Shown: piece after piece, positions 31,066 to 44,240 of the stretch
How positions within the stretch are numbered: position 1 is the stretch's first letter
Layout: the number at the start of each line of letters is the position of its first letter
Origin: Chloroflexota bacterium
GTDB taxonomy: Bacteria; Chloroflexota; JAJPGV01
Reading direction: 5' to 3'
Length of the DNA: 64,000 bases
NCBI GenBank assembly: GCA_021325635.1
Contig: JAJPGV010000008.1
Span: forward strand, 1-64,000
Program-made: the position numbers and the translations under genes
Notes under the pieces: generated by a model
Told to the model about the DNA's origin: nothing
Seen by the model: only the letters and a program-made list of their open reading frames with translations
Database searches by the model: none

Positions 31066-31206
31066 ATGAGGCCTTTGGCAGTCACCCTCCTCCTGGCGGC
31101 CCTCCACTCCAGCTCGCTGATTTGGCCCGCAAACTGCGTCCAGGCAGGCAAGCTACAGCACATGGGGGAGCAAGCCTTGACCCGCACTGGGCGCGATGAG
31201 CGCTGA
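31066..31206 (+). CDS. Possible small exported peptide
   Basis: A 46-codon frame starting MRPLAVTLLLAALHSSSLIW, a signal-like hydrophobic start, that overlaps the next gene start by 11 bases. It would be the only gene in the 264-base gap. No homology is recognised and it may be chance. Confidence 0.2.
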   Translation: MRPLAVTLLLAALHSSSLIWPANCVQAGKLQHMGEQALTRTGRDER

Positions 31207-32047
31207 GCTCGACGTCCTGATTCCAACGTATCGCCGGCCGGCCGCGCTGGCGGTGACCCTGGCCACGCTGCTCGGCCAAAGCTTCAGCGATTTTCGGGTA
31301 ATCGTCTCGAATCAAACGGAAGATCCGGATCCGCCGGCAGGCGAGGTTGAGGCCGTGGTCCGCGTGCTCCGAGCCCACGGACATGAGGTGCAGACGCTGA
31401 GACATCTCCCGCGTCGAGGTCTGGCCGAGCAGCGCCAGTTCCTGCTGGATCGCTCCTCGTCGCCGTACGTGCTGTATCTCGACGATGACCTCATCCTCGA
31501 GCCCTGGGTGCTGGGCCAGATGCTCGGTGCCCTGCGTGAGCTGGCGATTGGGTTCGTCGGCTGCGCCGTCATCGGGCTCAGCTACCTCGACGACGTGCGT
31601 CCGGACCAGCAGCGCATCGAGCTCTGGGAAGGGCCGGTCGAGCCCGAAGAAGTGCGGCCCGACAGTCCGGCGTGGGAGCGCCACAAGCTGCACAACGCCG
31701 CAAACCTGTACCACGTGCAGCGGAAGCTCGGCGTGCAGCCGACAACGCTGCGAGCATACCGCGTGGCGTGGGTCGGCGGCTGTGTGCTGTATGACAGCGC
31801 CAAGCTGCGCGCGGCCGGCAGCTTTCAGTTCTGGCGAGAGCTGCCGCCCGAGCATTCGGGCGAGGACGTGCTGGCGCAGCTGCGAGTTATGAGCCGCTTC
31901 GGCGGCTGCGGCTTGATCCCATCCGGCGTGTACCACCAGGAGCTGCCGACAACCGTGCCCCACCGTGAGTTCGATGCGCCAAGGATGCTGCCCGCAGCGG
32001 CTCAGGGAGCTGGCGCAGCCCTATGCCGTGAGGAGCTCGCGGGCTGA
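31196..32047 (+). CDS. Family 2 glycosyltransferase
   Basis: A 283-residue GT-A enzyme. It begins DVLIPTYRRPAALAVTLATLLGQ, with the nucleotide-metal motif YLDDDLIL at about residues 99-106 and a C-terminal acceptor region (GGCVLYDSAKLRAAG; HSGEDVL). There are no membrane segments, so it transfers single sugars rather than making long polymer. It converges on the GT9 operon and overlaps its last gene by 27 bases. Confidence 0.9.
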   Translation: MSAELDVLIPTYRRPAALAVTLATLLGQSFSDFRVIVSNQTEDPDPPAGEVEAVVRVLRAHGHEVQTLRHLPRRGLAEQRQFLLDRSSSPYVLYLDDDLILEPWVLGQMLGALRELAIGFVGCAVIGLSYLDDVRPDQQRIELWEGPVEPEEVRPDSPAWERHKLHNAANLYHVQRKLGVQPTTLRAYRVAWVGGCVLYDSAKLRAAGSFQFWRELPPEHSGEDVLAQLRVMSRFGGCGLIPSGVYHQELPTTVPHREFDAPRMLPAAAQGAGAALCREELAG

Positions 32048-33097
32048 GCCCAGGACGGCGGCCACGGGCACGGGAGACACGAACGAGGGACGGTGGCCGC
32101 AGTCGCCCTCGAGGCAGTTGCGGCCGCAATCCGAGCAGCTCAGCTGCCAGGAGATCTCGGCCCGGTGGCGGGTGCGGCCGATTGGACCGCCGTTGATCAT
32201 GTTGCCGCACCAGTAGATACCCACCGTGCGTGCGCCGACCGCGGCTGCCAGGTGCAGAGGGCCGGTGTCGTTAGCCACGACGAGCCGGCAGCGCGACAGC
32301 AGACCGCGCAAGGCGGGCAGCGACAGCCGGTCGCACAGGTCAATGGCGGGGCAGCTCATGGCGGCGATGACCTGCTCTACGAGATCGTGCTCGTTGCCCT
32401 GGCCGGTGATGATGATGCGGGCGCCGGCGCCGGCCAGCGCATCCCCCACTGCGGCGAAGCTGGCCGCGGGCCAGCGGCGGCGCGGATCGGACGCGCCCGG
32501 GTGCAGAACCACCAGCGGTCGATCTCGCTCATGCCAGGGCAGCACACCGTCCACGACAGCCCGGTCCTCGTCGGATACCGGTAATGTCGGCTCGCACACC
32601 GCGGGCGTGGCGCCGGCCAGAGCTACGAGCTCGAGATAGCGGGCAACTTCGTGCTGAAAGTACACGTACGGGCAGCAGCGATCCAGTGGCACCGCTTCTG
32701 GCGTCTTGAGGCCGATGCTGAGACGCGGACGAACGCGGCGCATGAAGGGGTTAGAGTAGCGCCCGCCGCCGTGCATCTGGATGCCGAGGTCGAAGCCCTC
32801 GGAGGCCATGCGTTCGAGAAAGTCATCGAGCTCGGCCTGCTCAGCGGAGCTCAAGCCGTCATCCTCCGGCGCGCCGACTCCCGGGCACTTGGGTACGCCT
32901 ATGACACGGTCGACCGGCGCGGAAATACCGGCGAAGAACTCGGCGTGCCAGGACTTTGCCAGCAGGGTGATCTCGGCCTGTGGATAGGCGGCGCGGAGCG
33001 CGCCCAACGCGGGCAGGGCAAACATCAGATCTCCCAGGCCGTTGGCTCGCAGCACGGCGATCTTGGCGACGCCCGGCTGCGGAGGATAGGTGACCAT
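32021..33097 (-). CDS. GT9 heptosyltransferase-like protein (3)
   Basis: A 358-residue GT-B enzyme of the heptosyltransferase family. It begins IAVLRANGLGDLMFALPALGAL and has LVVLHPGASDPRRRWPAASFA and VVANDTGPLHLAAAVG, the donor-binding segments of WaaC/WaaF. A Cys-rich stretch near the C-terminus (SCSDCGRNCLEGDCGH) suggests a metal site. The start ATG overlaps the previous stop in a TGATG junction. It is the last gene of the heptose operon; ADP-heptose is the likely donor given HldE in the operon. Confidence 0.9.
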   Translation of the reverse strand: MVTYPPQPGVAKIAVLRANGLGDLMFALPALGALRAAYPQAEITLLAKSWHAEFFAGISAPVDRVIGVPKCPGVGAPEDDGLSSAEQAELDDFLERMASEGFDLGIQMHGGGRYSNPFMRRVRPRLSIGLKTPEAVPLDRCCPYVYFQHEVARYLELVALAGATPAVCEPTLPVSDEDRAVVDGVLPWHERDRPLVVLHPGASDPRRRWPAASFAAVGDALAGAGARIIITGQGNEHDLVEQVIAAMSCPAIDLCDRLSLPALRGLLSRCRLVVANDTGPLHLAAAVGARTVGIYWCGNMINGGPIGRTRHRAEISWQLSCSDCGRNCLEGDCGHRPSFVSPVPVAAVLGSARELLTA

Positions 33098-34116
33098 CAG
33101 GATGCGAGGGCCAGCGGATGGCTGAGGAGATCGACCGCTTCCGCCGTGACCTGGCTCGCGGCCTGGCCATCGGCGATGGACCGAGGGCAAACCACACGGT
33201 GGCGATCACGGTCGGCCGGGCGCCAGCGGTGCGGATCGGAACCCGTGGCGACGATGACGCTGGGCACTCGCAGTGCGTCCGCCAGGTGCGAAACGCCGGT
33301 GTCGTTGCAGACGAGCAGCCGCGCTCGCGACAGCAGGGCTGCCAGCGACCTGAGAGTCGTCCGCCCGGCCAGGTTCAGCGCGGGCCATTGCATCCCCGCG
33401 GCGACCTGCGCGGCCAGGTCTCGTTCCGCCGGCACGCCTGTGAGCACGATGCGCTGATCGCGGGCGGCCAGCGCGTCGGCCACGGCGGCAAAGCCGCGCG
33501 GAGACCAGCGGCGTGAGGGCGCCGAGGCCCCCGCATGCACGCAGACGTAGGATTGGCCGTGGAGCGCTCGGGCTTCGTTCACGGCCGCGAGATCCTCCTC
33601 GTCTCGAGGGCTGAGCGGGAACTCCAGCGCGTTCCCCCGGGACTGCATACCCAGGAAGCTCGTCAAACGCAGCAGCGTATCCACCTCACTCAGGCCCTCC
33701 GGAAAGGGCAGGAACGCGCCCTTCTCCGGGCGGGGACCGCCTGGCTGATAGAAGCCGGCCGTGCAGCGCGCGCCCAGCCGTCCCACCAGGGCATTCGTTA
33801 CGGATCCGTTGCCGTGCAGCTGGATGGCAAGATCGAAGCGCCGCGCCCGCACGGCCTCGAAGAAGGCCGGCAGGAGCGCCAGATCTGGCTCGCGTTCGGG
33901 CAGCCCCGGATAGCCCGGGAACTCGATGAGCTCGTCCAGGTACGCGCCGAAGCGCTGCACGATTTCCCTGGCCCAGGGCAAGCCGATGAGGCTGACGTGA
34001 GCCTCCGGCAGCGCTGCCCGCAGAGCGCGGAAGGCCGGCACGGCGCACAGCAGATCCCCCAGTTGCAGCGCGCGAAAGATGGCCACGCGGCGTAGCCCAC
34101 GGCTATCGAGCCGCAT
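33097..34116 (-). CDS. GT9 heptosyltransferase-like protein (2)
   Basis: A 339-residue GT9 enzyme. VAIFRALQLGDLLCAVPAFRAL opens the acceptor domain, and VCVHAGASAPSRRWSPRGFAAV with LLVCNDTGVSHLADAL forms the donor site. It overlaps the upstream GT9 gene by 14 bases and the next by one. Three different GT9 genes in a row suggest successive transfers onto one oligosaccharide. Confidence 0.9.
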   Translation of the reverse strand: MRLDSRGLRRVAIFRALQLGDLLCAVPAFRALRAALPEAHVSLIGLPWAREIVQRFGAYLDELIEFPGYPGLPEREPDLALLPAFFEAVRARRFDLAIQLHGNGSVTNALVGRLGARCTAGFYQPGGPRPEKGAFLPFPEGLSEVDTLLRLTSFLGMQSRGNALEFPLSPRDEEDLAAVNEARALHGQSYVCVHAGASAPSRRWSPRGFAAVADALAARDQRIVLTGVPAERDLAAQVAAGMQWPALNLAGRTTLRSLAALLSRARLLVCNDTGVSHLADALRVPSVIVATGSDPHRWRPADRDRHRVVCPRSIADGQAASQVTAEAVDLLSHPLALAS

Positions 34117-35164
34117 ACAGGTCCAGCGCGGCTCGAACGACCTCGTCCGGCTCGACCAGACTCAAGCAGTGCTGGTGTCCTTCGGGGCAAACGCTGCGGT
34201 AGCAGTTCCTGCAGGGCACGTCGTGCGAAAGCACGCGCGAGGCTACGCCCCAGGGAGTATGCTGCGGGTTGGTCAGCGCGTAGAGATCGACGACGGGGGT
34301 GCCTACGGCGCAGGCCAGGTGCACCGGCCCGGTGTTGTTGGCGATGAGCAGGGGGGCGCGCTCCAGCAGCGCGGCCAGCTCGGCGAGTGAAAGCTCGCCC
34401 GCCAGCGACGTGCCGGACGATGAAGCTCGAACAGCGTCAACCAGCGTTCGCTCCTCCGCGCTTCCCGAGAAGACGATCTGCCAGCCATGTTCGACGGTCA
34501 GGCGGCGGACGACCGCGGCGAACAGCTCCGGCGGATAGCGCCGCGATGGCGCCGTGGCTCCAGGATGCACCACGGTCCAGGGCCGGCCGGGGTCGAGGCC
34601 GATCTCAGCCAGGATCCGGCCCATCCTGGCGCGGGCCGGATCCGGCACCCGCACCGCCAGCCGATCGCGAGCCGGCTCGAAGCCAAGGTGCGCCACCAGG
34701 TCGAGCTGGCGGCGCACCTCATGCCGGATCAGCTGCCGCGGCTCCGGATCCGGCAGCCAGTCGGTCAGCAGCTGGTAGGGATTCTCGTGACAATGCGCCA
34801 GCCGCAGCGGGATATCCGCCAGATAGCAGACGAGCGCCGCGGGCAGCGGGCTCTGGCTGCAGACGGTGAAGATCGCGGCCGCGTCGAACTGCGCCTCGCG
34901 CAGCGCCGCCACCAGACGCAGAGCGCCTTCGGCCCCACCGTCCGCCACGGTCTTCATCCAGGGAGCGTCGAAGACCATGACCTCGTCGACTTCCGGCATG
35001 AGCGCCGCCGCTTCGGCTCCGCTGGGTGACGTCAGCAGCGTGAGACATGCGCGGGCGGGCGAGCGCCCGAGAGCCCGGAGGGCCGGTCCCGTCATCAGCA
35101 CGTCCCCCAGGCTGTCGAGCCTAACGCAGAGCAGCCGTCGCGCCGCCGACCAGCGAGGATCCAT
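34103..35164 (-). CDS. GT9 heptosyltransferase-like protein (1)
   Basis: A 353-residue GT9 enzyme. RLLCVRLDSLGDVLMTGPALRAL opens the fold; WTVVHPGATAPSRRYPPELFAAV and LLIANNTGPVHLACAVG mark the donor domain. A Cys/His patch (CRNCYRSVCPEGHQHC) parallels the third GT9 protein. I set the start at Met 35164, which overlaps the HldE gene by 44 bases; a shorter start nearer LLCVRL is possible. Part of the ten-gene glycan operon. Confidence 0.9.
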   Translation of the reverse strand: MDPRWSAARRLLCVRLDSLGDVLMTGPALRALGRSPARACLTLLTSPSGAEAAALMPEVDEVMVFDAPWMKTVADGGAEGALRLVAALREAQFDAAAIFTVCSQSPLPAALVCYLADIPLRLAHCHENPYQLLTDWLPDPEPRQLIRHEVRRQLDLVAHLGFEPARDRLAVRVPDPARARMGRILAEIGLDPGRPWTVVHPGATAPSRRYPPELFAAVVRRLTVEHGWQIVFSGSAEERTLVDAVRASSSGTSLAGELSLAELAALLERAPLLIANNTGPVHLACAVGTPVVDLYALTNPQHTPWGVASRVLSHDVPCRNCYRSVCPEGHQHCLSLVEPDEVVRAALDLYAAR

Positions 35165-36656
35165 GCTCGGGCTGTGAGGAATCTGCCGGGGCGACGTCCC
35201 TGATGCGCCGAATGAGCCCGGAGGTCGAATGATCCGGGAGCAGCGGCACGATCTCCACCCGGCCGCCCAGCTCGGCCACCAGGCCCGCTTCGGGCAGCTG
35301 CTCGCGCGTGTAGTTCCCACCCTTGGCCACCACCTCGGGCCGGATGAGCCTGATGAGATCGTCCGGTCGATCGTCCTCGAAGGTGGCGATGACGTCGACC
35401 GCGCTCAGCGCAGCCAGCAGCTGCACACGGTCGTCCAAGCCGTTGATGGGGCGGCCCGGACCCTTGAGGCGCGCCACGCTGGCATCCGAGTTGAGCCCCA
35501 CCACCAGGACGTCGCCCAGGGCTCTGGCCCGGTTGAGAAAGGCGACGTGGCCGCGATGAAGCACGTCGAAACAGCCGTTGGTGAAGACCACGGAGGCTCC
35601 CGCGGCGCGCTGGCTGTCGATGCGTGCTCGCAGCTGCTCCTCGCCGCTGACGCACTTCTCGCTCGGCGCGATCTGCCGGCACAGCTCAGCCGCCAGGCAG
35701 CAGGCCGTTCCCGGCTTGGCCACGACCACCGCGGCCGCAGCTGAGGCCAGCTCCGCGGCGGCGGGCACCGCGGCTCCGCAAATCAGCGCCAGAGTAAGCG
35801 CGGCGAGGAAGGTGTCGCCGGCGCCGGCCGGCTGAGGATTCTGGACGGGCCTGGCGTAGGTGCGATAGCTGGCGCCGGTGCGCTCGATGAACAGCGCCCC
35901 GGCCGAATCGAGGGTGATCGCGAGCAGATCCGCGCGCATTCGCTGCATGAGCTCAGGGCCGTGTGAACGCATCTGATCCAGCCGCGCGGCGTCGCCGGCC
36001 AGCTCGGGGAGGCTGAGCGCTCGGCAGGCCTCGGCGTAGTTGGGCTTCGCCACCACCGCCGGGACGTCGACGTAGCGATCGAGCTGCTTGGCATCGACGA
36101 GCAGGAGCTTGCGGTCACCTTCCTGCAGCCCGGACAGCGCGCGGATGACGCGCGAGGTCATGAGACCGCGGCCATAGTCGGACACAATCAAGGCCTCAGA
36201 CTCGGCGTGCAAGCAGCGCAGACGGTCGACCAAGGCCGCTTCGACGTCAGCATCGAGAGGCTCCTCGCAGCCTTCATCGAAGCGCAGCAGCAGGTGTCCA
36301 CCGGCAGTGACGCGGTGCTTGACCAGCGTACTGCGACCGGCGCAGGCCAGCATGCCCGACGTGTCGATCCCCCGTGCGGCCAGTGCGCTGCTCAGAGCCA
36401 TCCCAGCGGCATCCTGTCCCACGATCGACACGAAACGGACGGCGGCGCACAGCGCCTGTAAATTGACCGCGGTGTTTGCCGCACCACCCGGCACGTCCCG
36501 GCGGCGGCTGACGTTGACCACCGGCACGGGCGCTTCAGGCGAAAGCCGGCTGCTGTTTCCCTCGACGTAGCTGTCCAGCATGGCTTCGCCGATGACGCCG
36601 ACCCGGCGGCCCTGAAAGGCGCGAACAACAGCGGCCAGATCCTGGCTCACGCCCAT
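35121..36656 (-). CDS. hldE: Bifunctional heptose-7-phosphate kinase / heptose-1-phosphate adenylyltransferase
   Basis: A 511-residue two-domain enzyme. The PfkB-type kinase (about 1-320) has GGAANTAVNL and the catalytic AGAGDTF loop. The nucleotidyltransferase (about 350-490) has TNGCFDVLHRGHVAFL with the HxGH motif. It phosphorylates D-glycero-D-manno-heptose 7-phosphate at C1 and, after GmhB, makes ADP-heptose. The start overlaps the gmhB stop by 10 bases. Length and both active sites are normal, so it should be functional. Confidence 0.95.
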   Translation of the reverse strand: MGVSQDLAAVVRAFQGRRVGVIGEAMLDSYVEGNSSRLSPEAPVPVVNVSRRRDVPGGAANTAVNLQALCAAVRFVSIVGQDAAGMALSSALAARGIDTSGMLACAGRSTLVKHRVTAGGHLLLRFDEGCEEPLDADVEAALVDRLRCLHAESEALIVSDYGRGLMTSRVIRALSGLQEGDRKLLLVDAKQLDRYVDVPAVVAKPNYAEACRALSLPELAGDAARLDQMRSHGPELMQRMRADLLAITLDSAGALFIERTGASYRTYARPVQNPQPAGAGDTFLAALTLALICGAAVPAAAELASAAAAVVVAKPGTACCLAAELCRQIAPSEKCVSGEEQLRARIDSQRAAGASVVFTNGCFDVLHRGHVAFLNRARALGDVLVVGLNSDASVARLKGPGRPINGLDDRVQLLAALSAVDVIATFEDDRPDDLIRLIRPEVVAKGGNYTREQLPEAGLVAELGGRVEIVPLLPDHSTSGLIRRIRDVAPADSSQPEHGSSLVGGATAALR

Positions 36657-37237
36657 CCCACCCGGCTCATCTCGATCAGCTGCCACGCGGCGTCCCCCAA
36701 ATCGGAGCAGATCGCGCTCGGGATGCGCTGCGTCAACGTCACGTCCCATTCGGTCTCGCCGCCGTTGTCCAGCAGCACGGTGCGGCAGCCGGCACGGTTA
36801 CCGGCCTCGACGTCGTCCAGGATGTCGCCGACCAGCCATGATTGGCCCAGATCGAGATCGTGCTCGCGACCGGCGCGCAGGAGCATCCCGGGCTGGGGTT
36901 TACGACAATCGCAGGTCCGTGCGCAGGCAGGCACCTCGGCGTGGGGCAGGTGGGGACAGTAGTAAAAGCCGGCCAGCGGGACTCCGATGCGAGCGAGCCG
37001 CTTTCTAAGCTCGGATTCCACCGCGGCGAGCGCGTCCTCGGGAAAGTAGCCGCGCGCCACGCCCGATTGATTGGAAACCACGAACAGGCGAAAGCCAGCG
37101 TCCCGCAGCATGCGCAGTCCGTCCTCCGCGCCGTCGTTCAGCTCGATGGCCGCCGTGTCGACGTTATAGGGCCGGTTGCGCACCAGCGTTCCGTCCTTGT
37201 CCAGGAACACCGCCCGACGCGGTCCGTTCACGGCCAC
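36647..37237 (-). CDS. gmhB: D,D-heptose 1,7-bisphosphate phosphatase
   Basis: A 196-residue HAD phosphatase of the GmhB type. The nucleophile motif is FLDKDGTLV. The zinc loop of the family is present as CPHLPH and CARTCDCRKPQPG, and the Mg motif is LVGDILDDVEAG. It removes the C7 phosphate between the two HldE steps. It overlaps the SDR gene by 10 bases and hldE by 10 bases. GTG start. Confidence 0.92.
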   Translation of the reverse strand: MAVNGPRRAVFLDKDGTLVRNRPYNVDTAAIELNDGAEDGLRMLRDAGFRLFVVSNQSGVARGYFPEDALAAVESELRKRLARIGVPLAGFYYCPHLPHAEVPACARTCDCRKPQPGMLLRAGREHDLDLGQSWLVGDILDDVEAGNRAGCRTVLLDNGGETEWDVTLTQRIPSAICSDLGDAAWQLIEMSRVGWA

Positions 37238-37959
37238 GACGTCTCCTTCATAGGCAGGACCATGACTTCGGGGATGACGGTCTCCTCCGGCTGGGAAAGG
37301 ACGAACACGACCGTCCTGGCGACGTTCATAGGGTCCTGAAGGGTGGCCTTGTCGATGTCAGGGAAGCGATCGAGCAGGAACGGGGTGCGCATGCCGCCGC
37401 TTACCACGGCGCTGACCTTCACGTTGTACTGGCGAGCTTCCACGTGCAGCGCATGGCTGAGCCCCAACAGGCCCCATTTGCTGGCGTGGTAGGCCGCCGC
37501 GTTGGGCCAGGCGCGCTTGGCGGCCGTGGAGACGATGTTGACGATATGCCCGCTGCCGCGCTGGCGCATGGCCTGCAGGGCAAATTTGGACATCAGAAAC
37601 GCCCCACGCAGGTTCACGCCCAACACTCGGTCCCAGTCCTTGACCGAAAGCTCATCCACCGGCGCCGTCACGTCCACCCCGGCATTGTTCACCAGCACGT
37701 CGAGCTGGCCGCAGCGAAGGATGGTGTCGTTGATGCCCGAGCGTGCCTCGGTCTCGTCGGCCACGTCCACTCGGAGAGGAAGGGCCTGACGCCCGCTGTC
37801 CGCCAGGCGCTGAGCGACCCTGTTGGCCCGCTCGAAGCTCACGTCCGCCACGATCACGGTAACGCCCAGGTCGGACAGCGCCAGGCTGATGCACTCACCC
37901 AGCCCGCTGCCTCCGCCGGTGACGAGGGCTACTCGCCCCTCGAGCAGGCCCACGGCCAT
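37228..37959 (-). CDS. Classical short-chain dehydrogenase/reductase
   Basis: A 243-residue Rossmann oxidoreductase. TGGGSGLGE binds the cofactor, VNNAGVD is the NNAG motif, and the catalytic set is Ser in IVSTAAKRA and YHASK. Asp in VADVS suggests NAD preference. It is about 70 residues shorter than the extended SDR HldD and lacks its layout, so it is probably not the heptose 6-epimerase; a role in sugar modification is inferred from the operon. The start overlaps the upstream stop as TGATG. Confidence 0.88.
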   Translation of the reverse strand: MAVGLLEGRVALVTGGGSGLGECISLALSDLGVTVIVADVSFERANRVAQRLADSGRQALPLRVDVADETEARSGINDTILRCGQLDVLVNNAGVDVTAPVDELSVKDWDRVLGVNLRGAFLMSKFALQAMRQRGSGHIVNIVSTAAKRAWPNAAAYHASKWGLLGLSHALHVEARQYNVKVSAVVSGGMRTPFLLDRFPDIDKATLQDPMNVARTVVFVLSQPEETVIPEVMVLPMKETSWP

Positions 37960-39911
37960 CACCTGCCCTCCGCTTCGACCGACCGGCGCTCAGATGTCGG
38001 TTCGGGCCAGGCAACCGAGGCCAGCTCACGGTGCGGCGGGCGAACCTCGTCGCGATACACCACCTGGGCGCGGCGCTCTTTGAAGAGATCCTCTTCGATC
38101 AGCTCGCACATGGTGTGGATCAGGAGCGTGTGGACCTCCTGGATGCGCTGCGCATCAGTCGATGGCACGATCAACGCCAGGTCCGCCAGCTTGCGCACGG
38201 CGTCGCCACTTCCACCCAGCAGCGCCAGGGTGGTGAGGCCGGACTCGCGCGCAGCTTGGAAGGCCTCGACCAGGTTTTGCGAGCGGCCGGTCGTGCTCAG
38301 ACCAACGAGCACGTCTCCCGAGCGGCCGAAGGCGTTCACCTGGCGAGCAAAGACCTGCTCGAAGCCCACGTCGTTGCCCCAAGCGGTCAGAACGGCACCG
38401 TCGGTGGTGAGCGCCAGCGCGGGAAGCCCGGGGCGGTTGGGATAGCGGAAGCGGCCGACCAGCTCCCCGGCCAGGTGCTGCGCCTCGGCGGCGCTGCCGC
38501 CGTTGCCGCAGATGAGCACCTTGCCGCCGCGCTTGAAACAGCCCCCCATGAGCTCTGCGGCTTCGCGGACCACGCGGCGCAGCCGCCGCTGCGACTCCTG
38601 CAGCGTAAGCACCGCACGGTCGAAGCAGCGATCGACCACGGCCAGCTGCTCGGCCCGCGGGCAGCGATCGGGCTGGCCGGCAGCCAGCACCTCTTCGTAG
38701 ACCTCGGCCGCGGCCTCGGCCACGTTGTGCCAGGTGAACAGATCGTTGACCCGGCGAATGGCCTGCTTGCGGAACAGGGCCAGGAGCTTGGGATTCTTGT
38801 AGAGATGGGCCAGGCGCTGCGCCAGCGCGGCAGGCTCGTTGGGCGGCACGAGATAGCCCGTCTCCCCGTCGCGTACCGAGAACTTGACGCCACCCACGTT
38901 GGCCCCGATGACCGGCGTGCCGCAGGCCATGGCCTCGACAGGTGACATGCCGAAGGGCTCGTACCAGGGCGTGGTCACGAAGATGTCCGCCGCGCTGTAG
39001 AAGTATTTGAGGATGTCGCGGCCGCGGCGTCCGGCGAACACCACCTGGTCCTCGACACCCTCACGGACGGCCACGTCGGACAGCCTTCCGATCTCCGGCG
39101 TGGCACGCCGGTCGGGCTGGTCCGACTCCCCGCCAACGATCAGCAGCTTGGCCTTGATGCCGTGCTGCTCCCACAGCCGGGGCAGCGCCCGCACGATGTT
39201 GTCGATGCCCTTGCGCGGCACCAGCCGCCCGACGTTCAGGATGATCTTCTCGTCGGCGCGGAAGCCAAGTGAAACGCGCGCCAGCGTCTTATCGATAGGA
39301 AAGAACTCCGATCGATCGAAGCCGCAAGGAATGATGTTGATGCGGGCGGGGTCGGCGTTGTACAGCTGGATCAGGTCCTCTTCGTCCTGGGGACATTCGG
39401 CCATCACGCGGTCCGCCTCCGCCGCCAGCATCTCCTCGATGGCGAAACGCTCGTCCGGGAACTCGTCGGCATCCTGCTGATGGATGCGGCGAACCCGACC
39501 CAGGGCGTGATAAGTGATGACGAACGGCACGCCCAGATGACGCTTGATGTTGGCGGCCACGAGCCCAGACATCCAGAAGTTGGCGTGCACCAGGTCGTAC
39601 GGACGGCGCTGGCGTTGAAAGAAGTCGATGACGTAGCGGCTGAACTCGTCCATGTACGGCAGCAGGTCTTCCTTGCGGACGTACCGTGCAGGGCCGGCCG
39701 GCACATGCACGATCCGAACTCCGTTCACCCACTCGGCTGTCTCGGGCAGGCCTTCGCTATCCCGCCGCGTAAACACGTCGACGTCGTAGCCGCCGTCGGC
39801 CAGGTGCTTGGCCAGCTGGCCAACGTACACGTTCTGTCCACCGCTATCCACGCCCCCGAGCACACCCATCGGTGAAGCGTGCTCGCTGATGACGGCGACT
39901 CGTCTGGTCAT
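37959..39911 (-). CDS. Fusion of GT4 glycosyltransferase and GmhA-type phosphoheptose isomerase
   Basis: A 650-residue two-enzyme fusion. Residues 1-420 are a GT4 enzyme like sucrose-phosphate synthase (LGGVDSGGQNVYVGQLAKHL; ILNVGRLVPRKGIDNIV; EPFGMSPVEAMACGTPVIG). Residues about 440-620 are a SIS domain matching GmhA: CGNGGSAAEAQHLAGELVGRF, GLSTTGRSQN and QEVHTLLIHTMCELIE, with the zinc His residues. The isomerase converts sedoheptulose 7-phosphate to D-glycero-D-manno-heptose 7-phosphate, the first step of ADP-heptose synthesis. The link joins precursor synthesis to sugar transfer in one chain. Confidence 0.92.
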   Translation of the reverse strand: MTRRVAVISEHASPMGVLGGVDSGGQNVYVGQLAKHLADGGYDVDVFTRRDSEGLPETAEWVNGVRIVHVPAGPARYVRKEDLLPYMDEFSRYVIDFFQRQRRPYDLVHANFWMSGLVAANIKRHLGVPFVITYHALGRVRRIHQQDADEFPDERFAIEEMLAAEADRVMAECPQDEEDLIQLYNADPARINIIPCGFDRSEFFPIDKTLARVSLGFRADEKIILNVGRLVPRKGIDNIVRALPRLWEQHGIKAKLLIVGGESDQPDRRATPEIGRLSDVAVREGVEDQVVFAGRRGRDILKYFYSAADIFVTTPWYEPFGMSPVEAMACGTPVIGANVGGVKFSVRDGETGYLVPPNEPAALAQRLAHLYKNPKLLALFRKQAIRRVNDLFTWHNVAEAAAEVYEEVLAAGQPDRCPRAEQLAVVDRCFDRAVLTLQESQRRLRRVVREAAELMGGCFKRGGKVLICGNGGSAAEAQHLAGELVGRFRYPNRPGLPALALTTDGAVLTAWGNDVGFEQVFARQVNAFGRSGDVLVGLSTTGRSQNLVEAFQAARESGLTTLALLGGSGDAVRKLADLALIVPSTDAQRIQEVHTLLIHTMCELIEEDLFKERRAQVVYRDEVRPPHRELASVAWPEPTSERRSVEAEGR

Positions 39912-40900
39912 GCAGGTACTCCCACCGTCGGAATTGCGGCTGTGGCTCGCCGTTCGAGGTTTCCGGTAACGGCGGCCAGGGTCTCCTCCCAGTCGCGCAC
40001 GAAGCGGTCCATGCCGAAGCGCCGCAGCGCTGTCTTCCGAGCTCCGGCGCCCAGCTCACGCGCCTCGTCTGCCCGGTCGAGCAGCCGGCGCATGTGTTCC
40101 ACCAGCCGTTGGGGATCGGTGTCGAGATAGCCTGAGACGCCGTTCTCGACGACGGTCACCGTCTCGGTGGTGGCCAGGCCAACGATGGGCAGGCCGACCA
40201 TCATCGCTTCGCACACGGCTAGCCCCAGGCTGGTGTAGCGAATCGGATTGAAGAAGAAGCGGTACTCGGCCAGCCGCCCCAGCAGACGATCGTGCGACAC
40301 GTCTCCAAGACCGCCCAGCCCCTCCGAGTCCATGCCCATCAGGTCCAGGGGAACCTGCCGCTGGGCGTCGCGGAACAGGTCCAGACCCAGGCGGCGGCCG
40401 CGTGACGGGAGGTTGTTGATGACTGCCGCGCCCGCGGCACGCTGCCCTCCATAGCGGATGCCAGGATCGACCACACCATGCTCGATCACTCGCACCGGCG
40501 TCCGGCCGCTGTCCCACATCAGCGCGTTGAAATGGGTGACGTGGACCAGCACGACGTCGGGATCGTCTACCGGGTGACGTGTGTCGGTGGGATGTCCTCG
40601 CGGGGGATCGTGCTCCAAGAAGATGCTTGGCAGCCGCCGCTGCTCCGGTGAAAGGATGGCGAAGCGGTCTTCCGCGTAGTTCTTGTGCGATTGGAACAGG
40701 ACGCAGTCGAATTGGAGCTGCCGGACCTCGGGAGCAGGCACTTCATGCACGTTCCCGCGCCAGGGAAAGCTGGCGGGCAGGCCGCAGTACCCCGCAGGAT
40801 CGCCGGGCAGGACCGGTATGAACAGCTCGTGCTCGACATGGCTCAGGTAGTAGAGATAGCTGCCGTGGACGTGCCAAGTAAGAACACGAAGTGGTCGCAC
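39908..40900 (-). CDS. GT4-type glycosyltransferase
   Basis: A 330-residue GT-B enzyme with a divergent N-terminal domain (VLTWHVHGSYLYYLSHVEHELFIPV) and a recognisable C-terminal donor site: FFFNPIRYTSLGLAVCEAMMVGLPIVGLATTE, with the Glu pair for sugar binding. ATGA overlaps the next gene. It is probably the first gene after a 107-base gap that follows the debranching enzyme gene; that gap shows nothing else. Confidence 0.88.
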   Translation of the reverse strand: MRPLRVLTWHVHGSYLYYLSHVEHELFIPVLPGDPAGYCGLPASFPWRGNVHEVPAPEVRQLQFDCVLFQSHKNYAEDRFAILSPEQRRLPSIFLEHDPPRGHPTDTRHPVDDPDVVLVHVTHFNALMWDSGRTPVRVIEHGVVDPGIRYGGQRAAGAAVINNLPSRGRRLGLDLFRDAQRQVPLDLMGMDSEGLGGLGDVSHDRLLGRLAEYRFFFNPIRYTSLGLAVCEAMMVGLPIVGLATTETVTVVENGVSGYLDTDPQRLVEHMRRLLDRADEARELGAGARKTALRRFGMDRFVRDWEETLAAVTGNLERRATAAIPTVGVPA

Positions 40901-41007
40901 AGAAGATGTACTCCATCGAAGCGGGAATGTGTCAGGGCTGCCTCCTGCTCAACCGGGCCAAACGCAAAACCAGGGCCACTTCTCGCCGTTAGGCCGCTGA
41001 GGTACCG

Positions 41008-43152
41008 TCAGCCGAGGGAGGCAATCTCCAGCCGCGGAGCGTCGCCCCGCGCTGCCAGCACATCGGTGTGGCAGCTGCCGTCTTCCAGCCGAAAGCGAAG
41101 GTCCAGCTCGCCACGGCCGACGCGCAAACCGCGCAGCTCAACCCAGGGCAGCCAGTCCGGCAGTGTCGGATTGACCATCAGGCGGCCGGACGGAGCATCG
41201 GCCTCCAAACCCAGCATGGCCTGCAGCAGCTGAAAGACGCTTCCAGCCGCCCAGGCTTGGGGGCTGTTGGCGGCGCGGTACTGCACCGGGAACGCGTTGG
41301 ATTGCCGCGGGACGCCAGAGAACAGCTCCGGCAGGCGATGGCTGATGAAGTAGCTGGCGGCGTCGAACATGCCTTTGGCAACCTGGTTGGCCTCATTGCT
41401 GAAGCCGTAGCGCTTCATGCCGGCGGCCACGATGCTGTTGTCATGCGGCCAAACCGAGCCCAGCTGATAGGAGAAGGGATTGTAGGCTGGATTGACCGCC
41501 GACAGCGTCCGAATGCCCCAGCCGCTCCACATATCCCCGGCGAGGAGCCGGCGGACCACGGGCTTTGCCTTGTCCCGGTCCACGATGCCGGTCCACAAGC
41601 AGTGGCCTGGATTGGACGTGATGGTGCGGATGGGCTGCTTCTCATGGTCCAGGCCAAAGGCGATGAACGCCTCCTCCTCAAGCCAGAACTCGCGGTTGAA
41701 GCGCGCCTTCAGCTCCACGGCCTGATGCTCCAGCGCTTCCGCGGCGGAGGCGTCCCCGAAGGCTCGGAACAGCTCGGCGGCAGCCAGCTTAGCGGCGTAG
41801 GCGTAGGCCTGCAGCTCGCACAGCGCCTTCGGCTGCTTGACCTGCGAGCCATCCGGATAGACCACGGCGTCCTGCGCGTCCTTCCAGCCCATGTTCTCGT
41901 AACCCTTGCTCGAGAAGGTCTGATATTCCTGAAATCCGTCGCCGTCGAGGTCGCCGTAGCGGTCGATCCACTCCAAGCAGCGGCGCGCGGCGGGGAGCAG
42001 ATCCTGCACCAGCTTGCGGTCGCCCAGCCAGCGCCAGGCCTGGTGCAGCACGATCACGAATAGAGGCGTTGCATCCCAGGTGCCGAAGTAGCGGGCGTGA
42101 GGCACTTCCCTGAAGTAGGCCAGCTCTCCGTGTCGGACCTCATGCACGATCTTGCCCGGCTGCGCGTCGCACCAGTCGTCACGCTCGGTTGCCTGGTGAG
42201 CGGCCAGGACGCGCAGCGTGCCCTCCGCGAAGCGGGCATGCACGGCCATGTTCTGCAGTGAGGCGATGAGGCTGTCGCGGCCGAACAGCGTCACGAACCA
42301 GGGCACGCCGGCGGCAGGCACCCACACGTCTTCATCCAAGTCGCGCTCGAACAGGCGCAGCGCGCTCATGTCCTCAACGGACTGGCGATAGGCCTCATTG
42401 AGATCGATCGATGGGCTGGCAATCGCCGTGCAGCGTTGGATCCAGAGCTGATGGAGCCGCACGGTATCATCCAATTGCTCGTCCCGGACACAGCGCGGCT
42501 GGAGCACGACGTCGTTGTGCTCCAGCACCATGTGCCCGCACAGCTCCTGGCTGGTGCCGGGCGGCAGGCGCAGAAGGTAAGCCAAACGACCGTTGGCGTA
42601 AGTAGCCGAGGCCTGCTCGCAGACCGACTGATAGCGCAGCGCGGCATGATAGTAGTCGCGCTGGTAGCTGGTGACGAGCTCCTTGCTGTCCGGATGCCAG
42701 GCCGTGACCACGCCGCCGCGCTGTCGCACCCTGCCGGCCTTGACCTCGAACAGATCGGCGAAATCGGACCTCAGCTCGATCTCGAACACGACCTCGGCGG
42801 CCTTCATACCGTAGTTCGTCAGCACCAGCGTTTCGTGCAGGCCCTGGTCGATGATGCGGTGGATCGACAGGTTCAGGGTCTCGGCGTCGATGACGCTGTC
42901 GTTGGTGAAGTTGGCAATCCGCGGGTTGGTCATGGCGATTCGCACCGAGTCGTGAGTAATCGTGGCGGAGCCAATACGCTCCCAGCGCTGCCCGTTGATC
43001 CACAGGGTGTAATGACTGAGGAAACGGGTGTCCTCGGCGAACAACCCATGAGCTTCGCCGGAAAAGACCTCGCCGCTGAGGTCTGTGACCAGGAAGGTGC
43101 TGCTCCTGTTGATGGTGAGGACCGGAGGACCGACGGCGATCTTGGTAGCCAT
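41008..43152 (-). CDS. Glycogen debranching-type glucosidase (GDE N-terminal plus GH63/GH133-like barrel)
   Basis: A 714-residue glycosidase. Residues 1-260 match the glycogen-debranching N-terminal beta-domain (INRSSTFLVTDLSGEVFSGEAHGLFAEDTRFLSHY). The C-terminal (alpha/alpha)6 barrel has WFVTLFGRDSLIAS, YGDLDGDGFQEY, NMGWKDAQDAV and FSYQLGSVWPHDNSI, with acidic residues in the usual catalytic positions. Similar proteins lie beside GT4 genes in many bacteria and may trim alpha-glucans or trehalose/maltose-like products. TGATG overlap with the upstream GT4 shows co-translation. No signal peptide, so it is cytoplasmic. Confidence 0.9.
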   Translation of the reverse strand: MATKIAVGPPVLTINRSSTFLVTDLSGEVFSGEAHGLFAEDTRFLSHYTLWINGQRWERIGSATITHDSVRIAMTNPRIANFTNDSVIDAETLNLSIHRIIDQGLHETLVLTNYGMKAAEVVFEIELRSDFADLFEVKAGRVRQRGGVVTAWHPDSKELVTSYQRDYYHAALRYQSVCEQASATYANGRLAYLLRLPPGTSQELCGHMVLEHNDVVLQPRCVRDEQLDDTVRLHQLWIQRCTAIASPSIDLNEAYRQSVEDMSALRLFERDLDEDVWVPAAGVPWFVTLFGRDSLIASLQNMAVHARFAEGTLRVLAAHQATERDDWCDAQPGKIVHEVRHGELAYFREVPHARYFGTWDATPLFVIVLHQAWRWLGDRKLVQDLLPAARRCLEWIDRYGDLDGDGFQEYQTFSSKGYENMGWKDAQDAVVYPDGSQVKQPKALCELQAYAYAAKLAAAELFRAFGDASAAEALEHQAVELKARFNREFWLEEEAFIAFGLDHEKQPIRTITSNPGHCLWTGIVDRDKAKPVVRRLLAGDMWSGWGIRTLSAVNPAYNPFSYQLGSVWPHDNSIVAAGMKRYGFSNEANQVAKGMFDAASYFISHRLPELFSGVPRQSNAFPVQYRAANSPQAWAAGSVFQLLQAMLGLEADAPSGRLMVNPTLPDWLPWVELRGLRVGRGELDLRFRLEDGSCHTDVLAARGDAPRLEIASLG

Positions 43153-44240
43153 CAGCGCGCGAAGGCCAGCTCGTAGTAGAGCCGCTCGTACTGCTCGGCC
43201 ATGACCTCGGCCGAGAAACGCCGCACGGCCTCGGCCCGGCAGCGGCCCCGATCCAGCTGGCCGACGTGCGCCAGGGCCTCGGTCATTTCGTCCGGGGTAT
43301 GCCGCACAAAGCCGCTGACGCCATCCTCGATCACTTCCGGCGCCGATCCCTGGTCGAGGGTCACGACCGGCGTGCCGCAGGCGAGCGCTTCGGCCATCAC
43401 CAGGCCAAACGGCTCGGGCCAGGTGATGGGAAAGATCAGAGCCCGAGCGCCGCCCAGAAAGGCGCTCTTCTCCACCCCACCCAGCTCCCCTACGTACTCC
43501 ACGCCGCGCTCTGTCAACATGGGCTCGATCTTCCTCCAGTATCGCCAATCGCGCTGGGCTTCAGGATTGTCGGGCTGATCGAGCGGAAGACGCGCAGCGA
43601 TCTTCAAGGGCATGCCCGCCCCGCGGGCGACTTCGATCGCCGTTTCGAGCCCCTTCTCGGGTGATACCCGGCCCAGGAAGGCGGCGTACGCACCCGGATC
43701 CGGGGAAAACTGGTAGTCCTCCAGCTTCAACCCGTGGTAGATCGTGGCCAGCCAGTTGGCCCACGGCACCGGCCGGCGCTGCGCGTCGCTGATCGACACC
43801 AGCGGCATGGCGCTGAAATGGCGCAGCCCGTCCATCTGGTCCTGTCTGTCCAAGCGCCCGTGCAGGGTGGTGAGGATTGGCGGGCATGGGGCCATGCGAG
43901 CCAGGGAAAAGGCCGCGAAGCTCATGTGATTGTGCAGCACGTCGAAGTCCGCGGCGCGTTCAAAGACGAGGTCGACGGTCTTCATGAGGTAGGGCAGGGG
44001 GTCCGGCGGTCGCGGTGTCCGCCACAGCGCCCAGTCGACGCTGGGAACGAGCCTGGCCGGGCTGGCGGAGTCCCCGCTGGCAAACAGCGTCACGTCGTGG
44101 CCACGGCGGAGCAGCTCGTCAATCAGAGTGGAAACCACCAGCTCTACGCCGCCGTATCCAAGTGGTGGGACCGGCAGCAGCGGAGCGACGATCTGCGCGA
44201 TGCGCAGCCTGGGACGATCCACGGGACGGCCCCGGCGCAA
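43152..44240 (-). CDS. GT4-type glycosyltransferase, first gene of the operon
   Basis: A 362-residue GT-B enzyme. GYGGVELVVSTLIDELLRRGHDVTLFASG forms the acceptor side. AAFLGRVSPEKGLETAIEVA and PFGLVMAEALACGTPVVTLDQGS form the donor site. It is likely the first gene of the ten-gene minus-strand operon, divergent from the glycosidase at 44336 across about 95 bases. Confidence 0.92.
   Translation of the reverse strand: MRRGRPVDRPRLRIAQIVAPLLPVPPLGYGGVELVVSTLIDELLRRGHDVTLFASGDSASPARLVPSVDWALWRTPRPPDPLPYLMKTVDLVFERAADFDVLHNHMSFAAFSLARMAPCPPILTTLHGRLDRQDQMDGLRHFSAMPLVSISDAQRRPVPWANWLATIYHGLKLEDYQFSPDPGAYAAFLGRVSPEKGLETAIEVARGAGMPLKIAARLPLDQPDNPEAQRDWRYWRKIEPMLTERGVEYVGELGGVEKSAFLGGARALIFPITWPEPFGLVMAEALACGTPVVTLDQGSAPEVIEDGVSGFVRHTPDEMTEALAHVGQLDRGRCRAEAVRRFSAEVMAEQYERLYYELAFAR

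Follow-up and report, generated by a model that had tools for sequence, protein, structure and literature searches.

ADP-heptose is best known as a precursor of LPS, and the question raised by this locus is what a set of ADP-heptose genes would serve in a bacterium that appears to make none. The window, that is, the whole 64,000-nucleotide stretch analysed, corresponds to contig C31 of a host genome of 4.64 Mb (96.4% complete). Ten genes, all on the minus strand, occupy positions 32021-44240, and Pfam and NCBIfam assign their families in the order GT4, GDE_N_bis hydrolase, GT4, GT4-GmhA fusion, SDR, GmhB, HldE and three GT9. The ten co-directional genes of the first-pass annotation, including a GmhA fusion, GmhB, a bifunctional HldE and three GT9, were thus recovered. 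They are listed below, together with a neighbouring GT2 gene.

31196..32047, plus strand: GT2 (PF00535), convergent with and overlapping GT9c
32021..33097, minus strand: GT9c (PF01075, 102.9 bits), likely ATG start at 33097
33097..34116, minus strand: GT9b (PF01075, 99.3 bits)
34103..35164, minus strand: GT9a, heptosyltransferase-II-like (PF01075, 108.8 bits), likely ATG start at 35164
35121..36650, minus strand: bifunctional HldE, heptose-7-P kinase and heptose-1-P adenylyltransferase (NF008454, PDB matches), likely start at 36650 or 36656
36647..37237, minus strand: GmhB, D-glycero-D-manno-heptose-1,7-bisphosphate 7-phosphatase of the HAD-IIIA type (Pfam/NCBIfam)
37228..37962, minus strand: classical short-chain dehydrogenase (SDR; PF00106), a recurrent module member
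37959..39911, minus strand: MshA/SPS-like GT4 (aa 1-415) fused to the sedoheptulose-7-P isomerase GmhA (aa ~426-612) (Pfam/NCBIfam, PDB matches)
39908..40900, minus strand: GT4b, a distinct GT4 glycosyltransferase of 330 aa used as module marker (weak partial Pfam GT1/GT4 matches; homologues)
41008..43152, minus strand: GDE_N_bis/MGH1-type glycoside hydrolase (GDE; Pfam), 107 bp upstream of GT4b
43152..44240, minus strand: GT4a glycosyltransferase (Pfam), overlapping GDE

Most junctions carry the stop/start overlaps that had been reported, TGATG at GT4a/GDE, GT4-GmhA/SDR and GT9b/GT9c, and ATGA at GT4b/GT4-GmhA. Two others, SDR/GmhB and GmhB/HldE, use GTGA, and GDE is separated from GT4b by a gap. 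Starts taken from the longest open reading frames are too long for several genes, the likely ones being 43152 for GDE, about 36650-36656 for HldE, 35164 for GT9a and 33097 for GT9c. GDE and GT4a were rejected as pathway members, since no homologue of either was found in 80 related loci, and they probably lie outside the module. Because of this lack of counterparts and of the 107-bp gap, what had been taken for a ten-gene unit should rather be seen as a heptose module of eight genes (32021-40900) plus a neighbouring pair, even though all ten genes are present. GT2 is a probable extra member of the module, and its homologue adjoins GT9c in three relatives (L056, L065 and L112). Scans for promoters and terminators returned no more signals than shuffled sequence, and the module holds no flippase, polymerase, ligase, transporter, anchor, lipid-carrier transferase or S-layer protein gene.

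The phylogenetic placement and the genome search proposed at first pass were both carried out. In an rpoB tree, the host grouped with named Chloroflexi and Anaerolineae MAGs (support 100/99), which places it in the Chloroflexota. No match to LpxC was obtained in the host genome at its 96.4% completeness, and the LpxC positive control matched E. coli and others. Neither the Kdo transferase WaaA/KdtA (PF04413) nor Omp85 (PF01103), which acts in outer membrane assembly, was found in this genome, and its best match to the HldD model TIGR02197 scored 133.4 bits for a cut-off of 274.6, leaving no HldD above cut-off. The full LPS core pathway, whose presence the first-pass annotation had set against its own reading, was therefore not found in the host, and its expectation of ADP-heptose genes in a bacterium devoid of LPS was borne out: GmhA, GmhB and HldE are present, LpxC, WaaA and Omp85 are not. 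On these gene absences, with that of an above-cut-off HldD, a role in an LPS core pathway was rejected. The lack of LpxC, WaaA and Omp85 agrees with the general statement that Chloroflexota are without BAM and LPS genes (PMC13319060).

Is the heptose assignment itself sound? The set GmhA, GmhB and HldE is found with its predicted catalytic residues. In alignments, the His/Glu/Gln active-site residues of GmhA and the GAGD and HxGH motifs of HldE are intact and kept across relatives, and the DxD motif and the CxH...CxC zinc ligands of GmhB are kept in 44 of 44 sequences. The GmhA part of the fusion matched GmhA in the PDB with 178.7 bits, and HldE matched 4e84, a heptose-7-P kinase, and 5x9q. 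Scores were below or at the NCBIfam cut-offs (191.1 for 209.5 with the GmhA equivalog, 144.5 for 178 with that of GmhB, 353.6 bits over 42-518 for 521 with NF008454, and 181.5 for 181.5 with HldE domain II), so that all three proteins are, by sequence, divergent members of their families. The ADP-heptose route is best read from the combination of enzyme families. A motif, (F/L)XXGRSTT, marks the STTR5-type promiscuous NDP-heptose nucleotidyltransferases and has been tied to CTP and UTP use (PMC11573728). It is absent from HldE, which reads LLPDHSTS with a His at the Arg position, and ADP-heptose is therefore the expected product. Two candidates for a replacement HldD were discarded: the SDR is of the classical type (PF00106), unlike HldD, an extended SDR (PF01370-type), and an extended epimerase lying near one Actinomycetota module (L079) scored 62 for a cut-off of 274.6.

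GT4b has homologues, 37-66% identical, in the corresponding position of other modules, and its AlphaFold model (pLDDT 85) has a GT-B fold like that of BshA, PglA and SPS. For the GT4 domain of the fusion, the closest solved structures are the sucrose-phosphate synthase Tll1590 (248.7 bits) and MshA (207), and its score with the MshA model TIGR03449 is 294.3, below the equivalog cut-off of 462.5. Four MshA residues, K78, R154, Tyr110 and Thr134, are what we take to be its phosphate ligands. Every one of the 81 such GT4s aligned carries Lys where MshA has K78 and Arg where it has R154, which suggests an anionic, probably phosphorylated acceptor; Phe and Ala replace Tyr110 and Thr134, so that the four-ligand set is incomplete and the acceptor would differ from inositol phosphate. 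GT9a, GT9b and GT9c belong clearly to PF01075 (99-109 bits for a cut-off of 22), and GT9a just exceeds the cut-off of TIGR02195 (135.8 for 134.6). The catalytic Asp is kept, and all three carry an Arg at the position of WaaC Lys192; in GT9a, an Asn stands at that of Asp261. Lys192 and Asp261 being presumably catalytic-site residues of WaaC, the GT9s of the window depart from the WaaC type, so that ADP-heptose is only their putative donor. GT9b recurs beside GT4b in Chloroflexota, and GT9c is found in only a subset of modules.

The same module recurs in more than one phylum, and this operon is one instance of it. A scan of named genomes gave full-length matches to the fusion protein in Chloroflexota and in Actinomycetota, the latter including Kocuria, Tersicoccus, Dietzia, Microbispora and Nonomuraea. 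Relatives' loci share GT4b, the MshA/SPS-like GT4, GmhA, GmhB, HldE, often the SDR, and GT9s, side by side. Among 80 related loci, 15 encode GmhA as a fusion with the GT4 and 32 as a gene of its own next to it. The GT4b marker was detected in 43 of 400 genomes of the phylum at E values of 1e-49 or better, with one further weak match (1e-21). A one-piece bifunctional HldE was present in 26 phylum genomes, 22 of which also had GT4b (Fisher p about 2e-21, assuming that the 301 genomes of the HldE tally fall within the 400 of the GT4b tally). In 21 of these 22 genomes, the positions in the hit tables put both genes on one contig, no more than about 7 kb apart. Several other carriers have separate hldA and hldC genes in place of the bifunctional HldE. 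A tree of GT4b shows two main clades, Chloroflexota and Actinomycetota, plus a few intruders which suggest transfer.

Gene clustering adds a NodU-type carbamoyltransferase and a GT2 to the relatives' loci, the GT2 being fused to GmhB in the Dietzia module (L079:5356-6978). The only carbamoyltransferase of the host is not of this type and is encoded on a contig other than C31. We also observed a polysaccharide pyruvyl-transferase-like gene beside the carbamoyltransferase of a Kocuria module (L061:2725-3663), with homologues in several other Actinomycetota loci. No published description of the module was found in the open-access literature, the only literature covered, so that its novelty is weakly supported.

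None of the 41 other Chloroflexota genomes with the module that were tested, and none of the five Actinomycetota carriers tested, has LpxC or Omp85. Five MAGs outside both phyla carry module genes together with LpxC and Omp85, and contamination is possible in these. Four of them (L058, L059, L066 and L132: Gemmatimonas, Betaproteobacteria, Hydrogenophaga and Eremiobacterota) have a cluster without GmhA and HldE, and the kinase and adenylyltransferase were found in them only as separate genes; in the betaproteobacterial MAG, hldA adjoins hldD, away from the module. This is consistent with an LPS heptose supply being shared with the module. The fifth, L054, has the full module with LpxC and Omp85, and neither WaaA nor an HldD above cut-off.

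Two further loci of the host were noted. A second pair, hldA and hldC, lies on contig C25 (L136:8282-12351), where its neighbours encode a flippase of the MurJ type and a UbiA prenyltransferase, so that this bacterium may incorporate heptose into more than one product. At the end of contig C6 (L134:8884-13219), several GT9 genes in a row (four matches) stand next to a WecG/TagA-like gene, apparently a second GT9-rich glycan locus.

Homology and gene content thus give ADP-heptose genes, a conserved module and no LPS or outer-membrane genes. The locus is likely to be a self-contained heptose-glycan module of a monoderm, making a short heptoside which is most likely associated with the surface or the membrane and is not LPS. 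GmhA, GmhB and HldE would supply ADP-D,D-heptose to the module itself, the D,D form presumably being used directly, with no epimerisation, because there is no HldD. The first sugars of a short oligosaccharide would be placed by GT4b and the MshA/SPS-like GT4 on an acceptor in the cytosol that probably bears a phosphate or another anion, GT9a-c (and GT2 where present) would attach heptose and perhaps other sugars, and the NodU-type carbamoyltransferase could decorate the glycan in many relatives. That this amounts to an undescribed class of D,D-heptose oligosaccharides, which would be assembled on a phosphorylated acceptor, bear carbamoyl groups in many carriers and form an LPS-core-like surface glycan in monoderm Chloroflexota and Actinomycetota, is a more ambitious proposal, which we regard as rather doubtful.

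GmhA, GmhB, HldE and GT9 being families of the LPS type, one could see in the host a cryptic diderm and in the module an LPS-core system that is divergent or survives as a relic, the more so as some Chloroflexota give diderm-like images (PMC13319060) and five LPS-type MAGs carry module genes. The host nevertheless lacks LpxC, WaaA, Omp85 and an above-cut-off HldD, and no Chloroflexota or Actinomycetota carrier tested had LpxC or Omp85, which makes this extremely improbable. A mis-annotated heptose, with the kinase/nucleotidyltransferase and the GT9s acting on another sugar, would account for the sub-cut-off NCBIfam scores and the non-canonical GT9 residues. The combination of GmhA, GmhB and HldE is, though, what heptose synthesis requires, and the three co-occur here with intact catalytic and zinc residues; we hold this reading to be very unlikely.

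A soluble or secreted heptose small molecule, either a specialised metabolite or a phospho-oligosaccharide, would fit a module with no flippase, polymerase, ligase or lipid-carrier transferase, whose first GT4 resembles SPS and MshA, enzymes of soluble sugar or inositol phosphates. The carbamoyltransferase and pyruvyl-transferase-like genes of some relatives would fit as well, and heptose is known from a natural product, septacidin (PMC11573728). Yet the module is conserved in numerous families from two phyla, and neither resistance nor PKS/NRPS genes were seen among its conserved neighbours; such a product seems unlikely. The surface-associated heptoside that we favour could also take a narrower form, in which heptose is placed on an S-layer or wall polymer, the destination suggested by the first-pass annotation, and exported by genes located elsewhere, for instance the MurJ-type flippase of C25. 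The monoderm-type gene content of the host (no LpxC, WaaA or Omp85), the layered envelopes described for Chloroflexota, for which polysaccharide or protein has been suggested (PMC13319060), and the fact that the flippase adjoins the hldA/hldC pair of this host are in its favour. Since no S-layer or anchoring gene is linked to the module, and a tie between the C25 locus and the module is only putative, this form is a fair possibility rather than the expected one.

Compared with the LPS inner-core heptose pathway (GmhA-HldE-GmhB-HldD, with WaaC/WaaF), the module shares the ADP-heptose enzymes and the GT9 family, but is devoid of HldD, lipid A, Kdo and outer-membrane genes. It adds the GT4 pair, the SDR and, in relatives, the carbamoyltransferase; its GmhA is fused to a GT4, and its GT9s carry Arg where WaaC has Lys192. 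In Gram-positive bacteria, S-layer heptose is supplied by the HddA/HddC GDP-heptose pathway. Heptose is used outside LPS in both cases, but the module would take the ADP route through HldE. The pathways of bacterial heptose natural products such as septacidin likewise turn ADP-heptose enzymes to a non-LPS end (PMC11573728), with different partner genes, whereas the module is a multi-GT4/GT9 glycan set found in two phyla. With MshA of mycothiol synthesis and Tll1590 (207 and 249 bits), its GT4 shares sequence family and the K78/R154 equivalents; it differs from MshA by its score below the TIGR03449 cut-off, the replaced Tyr110/Thr134 equivalents and its fusion or linkage to GmhA.

ADP-heptose is an ALPK1 agonist, heptoses may do more for the bacteria that produce them than is known at present, and conserved genes beside heptose enzymes have been offered as a way into these roles (PMC11573728). 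The module is such a conserved neighbourhood, common to two phyla lacking LPS, and its culturable carriers Kocuria, Dietzia and Microbispora make its role accessible to gene removal and sugar analysis. In Microbispora, a further locus (L102, L107, L120, L122 and L125), not adjoined by GmhA, combines an MshA-like GT4 with HldE, GT9s and an SDR.
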